Shown here: positions 32,930 through 35,459 of the stretch, in pieces | Numbering within the stretch: position 1 is the first letter of the stretch | Layout of the letters: every line of letters begins with the position of its first letter | DNA from: Desulfomarina profundi | GTDB lineage: Bacteria > Desulfobacterota > Desulfobulbia > Desulfobulbales > Desulfocapsaceae | Direction: 5' to 3' | NCBI RefSeq assembly: GCF_019703855.1 | Contig: NZ_AP024086.1 | Coordinates: 3,430,501 to 3,494,500, forward strand | DNA: 64,000 nucleotides | Position numbers and translations under genes: made by a program | Notes under the pieces: generated by a model | The model's database searches: none | What the model saw: the letters and a program-made list of their open reading frames with translations, nothing else | What the model was told of the DNA's origin: nothing

Positions 32930-33517
32930 ATGACAAACTACATCAAGCTTCGACTCCTGGCGGTCTTTCTACTGGCTGTTCCCACGATGTCTCATGCTTC
33001 CAACGCATTTGAAACCTGCCGGGACCATTTTCTGCACGGACGATATTTCGTTGCAGAAGACTCCTGTCTGCAGGCAGCTAACGAAGGGATACTTGATGCC
33101 CAGAAATGGGTTGCCTTTTTATATACCAAGGGCAAGGGAGTGCCGCAGGATTTTGACAAGGCATTTTTCTGGACCGAAAAAACGGCCAGGCGCGGTGACG
33201 CTAACAGCCAGTACCTCCTGGGACGGTGTTATCAATTCGGTACAGGAGTAAATAAAGACCTGCAACAGGCCCTGCACTGGTACAGGAAATCGGCAGAACA
33301 GGGTAATATTAACGGACTTTATGCCATGGGGAACATGTACAGAAATGGAATCGGCGTTACTGTCAACCACGCCAGAGCCTACGCATGTTACAGGTCAGCA
33401 GCGGAAAAAGGGATGTATCTTGCAAGCCAGGCCAGGGACAATGTTGAAAACAGACTGACGGATGAAAAAAAAAAAATTGCTGAACAACTCGCCTGTACTG
33501 CCCAGCCTGAATCCTGA
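32930..33517 (+). CDS. Secreted Sel1-repeat (TPR-like) protein
   Basis: The 195-residue protein has a signal peptide (residues 1-24, ending SHA) and then Sel1-like repeats: EGILDAQKWVAFLYTKGKGVPQDFDKAFFWTEKTA, RGDANSQYLLGRCYQFGTG and QGNINGLYAMGNMYRNGIGVTVNHARAYACYRSAAEKG. Such repeats form helical solenoids for protein contacts, often in signalling or envelope assembly. It ends at a strong terminator shared with the convergent rhodanese gene. Partner unknown. Confidence 0.85.
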   Translation: MTNYIKLRLLAVFLLAVPTMSHASNAFETCRDHFLHGRYFVAEDSCLQAANEGILDAQKWVAFLYTKGKGVPQDFDKAFFWTEKTARRGDANSQYLLGRCYQFGTGVNKDLQQALHWYRKSAEQGNINGLYAMGNMYRNGIGVTVNHARAYACYRSAAEKGMYLASQARDNVENRLTDEKKKIAEQLACTAQPES

Positions 33518-33557
33518 ACAAGCAGGCATGGCCAAACCCAATGGCTCAGTTCAGATA

Positions 33558-33591
33558 AAAAGACCGCCGACTCATCAGCCGGCGGTCTTTT
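33558..33591. terminator. Bidirectional terminator between Sel1 and rhodanese genes
   Basis: A near-perfect stem AAAAGACCGCCG / CGGCGGTCTTTT with a short loop, with A and T runs on both sides, lies between two convergent genes (stop 33517 on plus; stop 33626 on minus). Confidence 0.85.
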
Positions 33592-33625
33592 AACATTGGA
33601 AAAGCAATTTCTCAATATTTATAAG

Positions 33626-34960
33626 TTATTCCTCAATATCGCAGTCATCCAGCTCACAGGAAACTTCCGCAACAAGATATTTGGCGTTTTTATAACCATT
33701 CTTCTGCAATTCCTTGTACGCCATCTCCGCACGCGCTCCTGTCGTGCAATGGACGTAAATATCCTGATCCTTGGACATGCCGTCAATCGTTGCAAAGAAT
33801 TCATCCATCCTGCTGCATAACTGATCAAGCGGAATATGTCGTGACATGGGCAGTTTCCCGACTTTCACCTCTTCAATAGTGCGAACATCGAGTATAATTG
33901 CCTTGCTGGGATCTTCCATGGCTGCTTCAAATTCTGCAATGGACACTTCACCCGGAGCTAGCTTTCTTTTCCAGTTGACTTCCGTGACAACAGGCCCCTT
34001 GACGAGCCGACCACCCAGATGTTTCCACCCACGGTACCCGTCTTCAACAAGAGAAACCTTTTTATAGCCATTTTCCCTGAGCATTTTCAGGGCGGCCAGC
34101 ATCTCATCTTCCTTGTCACTGTACAGGACGACAGGCGCCTTCACCGGAATCTCATCCATGACATCTGCAAATGTCGCAAACGGCATACTCACAGAACGGG
34201 GGATACGGGCAACTGCATCTTTTTCAGCGCTGCGTAAATCAACTATGACATTATTTCCCTGGCATATAAAACCATACCCGGCATATGTCGGGTATCCGGC
34301 TTTACGCCATGCCGGCTCGCCATCAAGATAAACTCGAATATTTTTAAACCCTGCCTGGACCGCCTGACCGGCGGACATTGGACTCATACCTCAGGTAGGT
34401 CCTCCACAATAAAAAACCAGGGCCGCATCAAGGTCTTTAGGAAGAAGCCCCATCAGTTCCTGCATTTCACATACCGGAATGGAAATAGCACCCGGCAGAT
34501 GAGACTGGCTGTAACGGGCAGCGGGCCGGGAGTCAATAAGAACAAAATCTTCTTTGTTATCAATCATCTTTTTTAGATCAGCCGTCTGGATGATTGAAGT
34601 ACCTTTCGGCATCTTCGCAAGCTTGGGCCGGATAGATTTTGCATAAAAATCCTTACCCTGCTTTTCGTAGGAAACTATTACTCCATGCCCTTTATTTGCA
34701 TGTTCTATTCCATCAGTATTTTGATCAAACTTGATCAGAACGGCATGAGCCTTCTTCCCTTTGCCGACCTGAACGGAAATCGTTTTCGCCTTCATCGATT
34801 TCCCTACAACTCGACCTTTAAAAACCGGTCCGGTAACCTTCTTGGCAACCGCGACCGGCTTGGCCGCCGATCCGAACTGGCTGTCCGGCTGAACGCAGCC
34901 GCTCAACCCAAAAACGGCTACAACCAGAAAAGGCAGTAACCTGACTAGCATCTTCTGCAT
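33626..34960 (-). CDS. Selenocysteine-containing triple-rhodanese lipoprotein
   Basis: Two frames that look separate (34960-34391 and 34387-33626) are one gene read through an in-frame TGA at 34393-34391. The product has 444 residues: lipoprotein signal with LSGC22; an OB-like region at 45-105; rhodanese 1 at about 115-215 with FYCGGPT(Sec190)GMSP; rhodanese 2 at about 225-310 with no Cys in its loop (VVLYSDKED); rhodanese 3 at about 330-425 with VHCTTGARAE. Relatives have Cys where the TGA is, in the common pattern YCGG..C..S. A SECIS-like hairpin lies 16 bases downstream. The second half has no ribosome binding site. It probably handles sulfane sulfur in the periplasm. Confidence 0.88.
34360..34374 (-). 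promoter_or_regulatory. Bacterial SECIS element
   Basis: On the minus strand CCGCC-GGTCA-GGCGG forms a perfect five-pair stem with loop GGUCA, beginning 16 bases after the UGA. The E. coli fdhF SECIS has a loop containing GGUCU, eleven bases from its UGA, and SelB reads the G and U of that loop. Match of loop, stem and distance supports Sec insertion here. Confidence 0.85.
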
Positions 34961-35459
34961 ACTTCCCTCCTTAAATTGAATTGACTCTTACCTGGTTCCT
35001 CCCTGGAAAACAGCCCACCCCCTGCCATTTGCGGCAATTTTTCGCTCAACAAACAGCAATAACAGGAAAACTATTTGAAATATATACATATTTTACAACA
35101 ACAGTTCTCTTGTTTTAGAGAAACAGTTATCCAGATGCTCACCGTTTTAAAACATAAAAAACGTAACAGGCACAATGCCTGTATTACTAACAATTAAATA
35201 CTACCGGGCAAAACGTGTCGGCGTGATAATTAAAATTCAGCTTCAGCAATTAATTTTTTAACTGAAAATTTAATTACATGGCACACCCGAGCTCTCAAGA
35301 ACAACAACTCTGCATAGATTTTTCAAAACCATGTACCACATTCAGGGAAAAAATACAAAATAATGGTGCTGAAGTCAACGCCATTAATAATGGCTCAGCC
35401 GTTTATGCTATTGGGTGCAACAGAGTAATAAAAAGGTAGATACTATTTTCCCCGACCAT
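34961..35459. other. AT-rich intergenic region
   Basis: This 499-base stretch lies upstream of the rhodanese gene and downstream of a minus-strand glycosyltransferase. It is AT-rich from 35040 to 35280. The only open frame of note is 53 codons at 35278-35439 (plus), beginning MAHPSSQEQQLC, but it has no ribosome binding site and no recognised motif. I see no clear promoter or terminator. Confidence 0.45.

Follow-up and report, generated by a model that had tools for sequence, protein, structure and literature searches.

Gene Structure and Expression Signals

The window, a 64,000-nucleotide stretch of the Desulfomarina profundi genome, contains on its minus strand two open reading frames, 34960-34391 and 34387-33626, that share one frame and are divided solely by a TGA codon at positions 34393-34391. 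The coordinates and the junction, YCGGPT-U-GMSPMSAG with the TGA read as selenocysteine (U), were verified on the sequence and agree with the first-pass annotation, in which the two same-phase frames were joined. Read through the TGA, a complete coding sequence of 444 residues occupies 33626..34960 on the minus strand with an ATG start and a TAA stop, as supported by the sequence and by the Pfam Rhodanese model. A ribosome binding site, AAGGAGGG, is seen at 34965..34972 on the same strand, 4 nt before the ATG. The TGA (34391..34393, minus strand) corresponds to residue 190, and its assignment as Sec190 draws on the sequence, the homologue column, a downstream hairpin, and a tree. The codon for Cys185 (TGT, 34406..34408, minus strand) occupies the position of the standard rhodanese cysteine in the sequence and alignments.

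A likely intrinsic terminator is found 3′ of the second half at 33557..33592 (minus strand), where the longer stem was recognized by eye. A count of terminator-like sites gave 4, its inner stem among them, against 2.5 in shuffled sequence, so the site is statistically weak by itself. The earlier remark that the second half has no ribosome binding site is slightly off, since a GGAGG is present at 34405-34401, but this element stands 13 nt before the ATG at 34387, a distance that exceeds the usual spacing of ribosome binding sites. The same GGAGG doubles as part of the Cys-Gly-Gly codons.

Domain Architecture of the Joined Protein

The joined protein matches Pfam Rhodanese (PF00581) in three stretches with a score of 132.9 bits (cut-off 22.2), and the two halves score 36.6 and 90.6 bits. 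A lipoprotein with three rhodanese domains had been proposed from the sequence, and both parts of that description hold. The translation begins with a signal peptide (34895..34960) that carries the lipobox LSGC at residues 19-22, with Cys22 as its cysteine; the lipobox rule was used to call the lipoprotein signal. A conserved N-terminal region (residues ~45-115, 34616..34828), seen in the alignment, has no Pfam match at cut-off. These features and those below are all on the minus strand.

Rhodanese domain 1 (residues 127-220, 34301..34582, from Pfam) holds Cys185 and Sec190. The TGA falls inside its active-site loop, which has two residues more than the loops of the aligned ordinary rhodaneses. 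Rhodanese domain 2 (residues ~239-322, 33995..34246, from alignment) is presumably inactive, because by eye Ser281 stands where the catalytic cysteine would be. Rhodanese domain 3 (residues 341-429, 33674..33940, from Pfam and alignment) has the standard active site HC405TTGAR, an ordinary sulfurtransferase site of the CX4R type, and the translation ends in a Cys435-X4-Cys440 tail (33641..33658). An AlphaFold2 model built from four relative rows has a mean pLDDT of 49.2 and a pTM of 0.31, values too low for judging how far Cys185 lies from Sec190.

Codon 190 among Homologues

At least 109 of the 144 close relatives searched have a match to the three-rhodanese protein. From 138 matches, a set of 126 distinct segments of at least 100 bits was obtained after matches below 100 bits and identical copies were dropped; outside this set are five contig-end fragments above 100 bits from the search of the close relatives, two of them with the TGA. 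The column of codon 190 contains TGA in 97 segments, TGC in 13, and TGT in 6, and is aligned with glycine in 10. Neither TAA nor TAG appears in this column among the 126 segments. Cysteine had been expected in the TGA column of rhodanese homologues, and homologues ending at this position had been named as the contrary outcome. The homologues do not end there, and Cys or Sec fills the column in 116 of the 126 segments. A sequencing error at the TGA of the window is very unlikely, because 97 homologue segments have the same codon in this column.

The 10 Gly-aligned segments belong to a paralogue with a loop one residue shorter (e.g., YGVGGCLSP) and were scored neither as Sec nor as Cys. A cysteine is found one residue on in nine of them and is missing from the second copy of L077. 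Of the 9 segments with this shifted cysteine, 8 have lost Cys185 as judged by eye, and this loss suggests residue 190 as the main nucleophile. In three relatives (L067, L076, and L077, in G107, G116, and G123), the Sec form has a second, diverged copy close by on the same strand.

In a wider search of a phylum sample, 47 of the 395 genomes had a match, relatives already seen included. Column 190 was read in 21 of these loci (L158-L178), and the counts for this sample cover those loci; later matches, several of them without a stop, are outside them. The reading added 18 Sec rows. Locus L162 is a Cys row already counted, L164 has a TGA that was missed by the pattern, and L172 is without the motif. 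Counting the genome of the window, a TGA copy at the same codon is found in 86 genomes. An additional in-frame TAG is present in one relative (L039).

Conserved Features of the Family

Cys185, Cys/Sec190, and Cys405 are invariant across the 36 family members aligned. The motif (H/Y)CXXGXX of domain 3 is present in 132 of 134 rows, 73 of which show the form HC(S/T)TGAR; in six rows the sequence is HCNTGIM or HCNTGIL and the arginine is missing. A cysteine pair near the C-terminal end is counted in 76 of 115 Sec rows and 12 of 19 Cys rows, figures that are rough since rows truly ending at the TGA are read past it.

The N-terminus is more variable. Of the 113 Sec rows with a full N-terminus, defined as at least 165 residues before the Sec, 30 carry a CXXCH haem motif located past the signal peptide and 159-167 residues N-terminal to the Sec; 31 Sec rows had shown the motif, and L085 was dropped as spurious. 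One Cys row (L114) also carries CXXCH. In these relatives the motif stands just before the conserved N-terminal region, where the protein of the window has its lipid anchor. With a loose pattern applied to the 134 rows, 58 have a lipobox, 32 have CXXCH (one spurious), and 44 have neither; thus the lipid anchor is not general.

SECIS-Type Hairpin

A hairpin of the bacterial SECIS type, CCGCC-GGTCA-GGCGG, occupies 34360..34374 on the minus strand, as seen in the sequence and by comparison with homologues. The stem and loop segments (34374-34370, 34369-34365, and 34364-34360) and the distance of 16 nt from the TGA were verified and are as described in the first-pass annotation. Bacterial SECIS elements have a small apical loop that contains a G, as set out in the available part of one report, and the hairpin has such a loop (PMC1088965). 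A search of positions 33400-35300 against Rfam returned 15 matches at E values up to 10, none of which reaches its gathering score. The folding z-score of the single sequence is 0.26. Since the energy of the hairpin alone is ordinary, the case for it rests on comparison.

By a strict test, the hairpin is more than a product of chance. The test asks for 5 or more Watson-Crick pairs, 4 or more of them G-C, a G at loop base 1 or 2, and a correct distance from the TGA. It is passed after 11 of the 2574 TGA triplets in the window, the TGA at 34393-34391 among them. Among homologues it is passed by 64 of 111 distinct TGA rows and by 2 of 19 Cys rows; 47 of the TGA rows fail it. The rows align in register downstream of the TGA and are gap-free. 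Each of the four inner stem pairs forms in all 111 TGA rows, and the outer pair forms in 67. In the 19 Cys rows, the four inner pairs form in 4, 17, 17, and 9, and the outer pair in 5.

One stem position is occupied in the 111 TGA rows by CG (92), TA (13), GC (3), TG (2), and AT (1). The mean number of core pairs is 4.60. Shuffling synonymous codons among the rows lowers it to 4.36, with 0 of 1000 permutations as high as the observed mean, and drawing codons from the codon usage of the family gives 3.14.

Selenocysteine Machinery

The genome of the window was searched for selA, selB, selC, and selD, a check proposed with the original reading, and all four are present. SelA is matched at 634.6 bits and SelB at 364.5 bits, and a tRNA-Sec with a UCA anticodon is found. 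Two selD genes are present (L179, G000:C1:3598297-3599223, and L180, 581421-582347). Both have a single in-frame TGA close to the beginning, which we take to be the usual position of the SelD selenocysteine. These two genes are internal controls for Sec decoding.

Of the 86 genomes with a TGA copy, 72 have a match to the tRNA-Sec model RF01852, 75 have a SelB match at E 1e-60, and 82 have either or both; the SelB match of G097 is below the cut-off. Thirteen of the 14 genomes without a tRNA match were searched again with laxer filters and still gave none at E 1e-8, and G139 is counted as lacking tRNA-Sec from its absence among the RF01852 matches listed. Neither tRNA-Sec nor SelB was found in G008, G017, G048, and G074, which are drafts of 130 to 810 contigs that contain the TGA gene. 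The only tRNA match in G033 reads as a tRNA with a Cys anticodon and the match in G038 is not recognized by ARAGORN, so 70 of 86 is the safer count for tRNA-Sec. Among the rows examined, 13 genomes hold the Cys form only and 10 of them keep a tRNA-Sec match; selenocysteine is therefore not indispensable in this protein.

Two other observations were made on tRNA genes. In six relatives (L200, L203, L204, L207, L208, and L209), tRNA-Sec-like genes are read by ARAGORN as tRNA-Cys with the anticodon GCA; selC-like tRNAs of the Cys-anticodon type occur in the literature. In two further relatives (L193 in G123 and L194 in G095), a tRNA-Sec (UCA) directly adjoins a second SelB match that covers profile positions 2-352 and 2-357 of 581, respectively, in frames of 699 and 684 aa. 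The pair is possibly a separate Sec module.

Sec/Cys Interchange, Selection, and Decoding of the UGA

A quick tree was calculated from 132 rows (114 Sec and 18 Cys), with two short rows left out; its alignment retains the cysteine of the Cys rows, so the column of the trait is partly within the tree. Twelve Sec/Cys interchanges are required by parsimony, and at least 9 are forced by well-supported branches. Many Cys rows are nested in Sec clades, and the tree gives no direction of change. In comparisons of the separate gene halves, dN is smaller than dS in all 14 computable cases, some of them near saturation; 6 of the 20 comparisons gave no dS value. These values indicate that both halves are under purifying selection.

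Two separate genes, with the TGA as a true stop and the second half starting at ATG 34387, perhaps through translational coupling, would account for the listing of both halves as open reading frames. The ATG does start three bases past the TGA, with the GGAGG 13 nt before it. This arrangement is nevertheless very improbable. All 97 interrupted homologue segments are broken by TGA and none by TAA or TAG, and the Met192 codon is not ATG in 27 of the 111 distinct TGA rows (22 CTC/CTG/CTT, 3 TTG, and 2 other). The split would cut a rhodanese domain in its active-site loop, the Cys homologues read straight through, and the inner stem pairs are retained with TGA and partly lost with Cys. The two frames are almost certainly one gene, whose internal TGA encodes selenocysteine in an exported sulfur-handling protein.

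An in-frame stop ordinarily points to a pseudogene or a sequencing error, and either would be exceedingly improbable here: 86 genomes share the TGA at this codon, the two halves are under purifying selection, and the hairpin is conserved. Insertion of an ordinary amino acid at the UGA by a suppressor tRNA is just as remote, given the UCA tRNA-Sec with SelA, SelB, and SelD, the cysteine at this column in 19 of 19 full-loop segments without TGA, and the retained SECIS-type hairpin.

From these comparisons, the UGA at codon 190 is, with very high confidence, predicted to be decoded as selenocysteine by SelB and tRNA-Sec as directed by the downstream hairpin. The locus as a whole is most probably explained by a single selenoprotein gene for an exported lipoprotein with three rhodanese domains. 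Standard calling of open reading frames halves the gene, so that misannotation is probably frequent for this exported sulfur enzyme, which most of the close relatives searched possess. The family offers at least 9 natural swaps between Sec and Cys, accompanied by decay of the SECIS element in Cys forms, and these provide a good natural experiment on the use of selenium.

Genomic Context and a Second Rhodanese

Across 83 sequences, made up of the window and 82 loci of more than 6 kb, no widely conserved neighbour gene was found; the commonest tight cluster is present in 15. The nearest relatives were lacking from this analysis and six of them were added afterwards; the sole neighbour of the window gene shared with these is a convergent open reading frame at 32930-33517, in two of the six. 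Two scans of viral contigs gave no relative, and no match was found among plasmids. The genome contig set gave three single-domain Bacteroidota rhodaneses only, without Sec or Cys at column 190.

The genome of the window contains a second likely rhodanese selenoprotein (L043/L184; G000:C1:593874-594641) with the junction FFCKGPG-U-LKSPEAA. A hairpin, CTGCC-AGGAA-GGCAG, is likewise located 16 nt past its TGA. Homologues from the same genus (G003 and G006) have cysteine at the Sec position and no such hairpin, and the second rhodanese stays below the cut-off of every NCBIfam model. In another relative, a Cys-form homologue of the second rhodanese with an in-frame TAG (L066/L188; G089:C6:220129-222537) adjoins a three-rhodanese Sec gene on the opposite strand.

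Proposed Mechanism and Function

We infer that the product is an extracytoplasmic (periplasmic) sulfane-sulfur redox enzyme, a proposal held with about even confidence. Sec190 and Cys185 are likely a redox pair. In the proposed mechanism, Sec190 would attack the sulfane sulfur of a polysulfide, thiosulfate, or persulfide outside the cytoplasm, and Cys185 would resolve the intermediate as a selenenylsulfide. From there the sulfur would either pass to Cys405 in domain 3 or be set free as sulfide, with electrons supplied by a periplasmic thiol or a cytochrome c partner. The substrate and the redox partner in this scheme are guesses. DsrA is matched in the host at 580.4 bits, from which the host probably has a dissimilatory sulfur metabolism.

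A selenoprotein without sulfane-sulfur chemistry is unlikely but of real weight. Such a protein would be a thiol/disulfide or peroxide reductase, or would handle selenite, tellurite, or metals at the cell surface in the manner of the Geobacter ext cluster. The available text on that cluster describes ExtH, a rhodanese lipoprotein of 49.0 kDa, within a cytochrome cluster (PMC5877670, PMC6148476). The haem motif in some family members points the same way, as does a gene with about five CXXCH motifs upstream in 7 loci (genera g3, g6, and g12). Domain 3 retains the ordinary rhodanese site, which argues for sulfur transfer, and the window has no open reading frame of at least 90 aa bearing two or more CXXCH motifs and no widely conserved neighbour.

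Within the sulfane-sulfur proposal, roughly one in four of the Sec members with a full N-terminus has the CXXCH motif, which suggests that the protein serves electron transfer and not sulfur transfer alone. A scheme for the whole family is offered as a speculation and is rather improbable: a periplasmic sulfur oxidoreductase whose Sec/Cys pair, carried by a rhodanese fold, would trade electrons with a c-type haem. The haem would be fused to the protein in part of the family; in the branch of the window, a lipid anchor and separate cytochromes would take its place. If so, a rhodanese that exchanges electrons with haem would be a redox enzyme of sulfur respiration or sulfur disproportionation with selenium at the key step. 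The haem-bearing members suggest that selenium, sulfur chemistry outside the cytoplasm, and electron transfer are linked in a way that can be tested.

Comparison with Known Systems

The statement in the first-pass annotation that rhodanese-like selenoproteins have been reported from marine surveys is correct for the parts of the two reports available (PMC1088965, PMC2398784). Five rhodanese selenoprotein forms are given in the available portion of a 2026 review (PMC13188914), and a similar list is found in part of another article (PMC9312934). A Sec-containing rhodanese-like domain is also reported in the accessible text on a marine deltaproteobacterial genome (PMC8318568). In the literature searched, part of it in excerpt, no description was found of a three-rhodanese selenoprotein lipoprotein or a haem-bearing selenoprotein rhodanese, which is weak evidence of absence. 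The excerpted text on Desulfocapsa sulfexigens counts nine rhodaneses, two of them with the consecutive tags UWK_03368 and UWK_03369 (PMC3739170). Our guess is that these two are the halves of such a split selenoprotein gene.

No NCBIfam model reaches its cut-off on the three-rhodanese protein. NF041203 (rhodanese form 3, LYCAU) is likewise rhodanese-related with a Cys/Sec active site, but its motif is CxU as opposed to CX4U here, and the score of 69.9 bits is below the cut-off of 115. TsoB (NF045694, form 5, UxxxxU) has the same spacing, with two redox residues five apart; it differs in having two Sec and a DsbD fusion-like architecture, compared with one Sec here, and is matched at 54 bits against a cut-off of 805.

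ExtH of Geobacter sulfurreducens (GSU2940) resembles the protein of the window in type, as a rhodanese-family lipoprotein of 49.0 kDa, but is not described as a selenoprotein in the available sections of the two reports, and the comparison is one of descriptions (PMC5877670, PMC6148476). In those sections extH sits in a porin-cytochrome cluster, whereas the window, with no multihaem open reading frame (at least 90 aa with two or more CXXCH), does not have a cluster of the extHIJKL type. In the part of the Geobacter literature available, loss of extI by deletion impairs the reduction of selenite and tellurite. A likeness to the Cys185/Sec190 pair in a protein of known structure is seen in BH2092 (PDB 3nhv and 3o3w), whose loop YCWGPACNGA has cysteine at both the 185 and 190 columns; BH2092 has a single rhodanese domain and no Sec, in contrast to the three domains here.

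Form 1 is defined in Table 1 of the 2026 review by PF00581, the motif UxxS, and WP_010941598.1, and is credited there to a 2005 paper (PMC13188914). Its UxxS in a rhodanese domain is matched by U190-G-M-S193, a likeness that was established by motif description only, from the part of the review available. The second rhodanese of the genome (L043) fits UxxS as well. Rhodanese selenoproteins are thus already known as a kind, and the three-domain lipoprotein is a further member, set beside form 1 by motif description.
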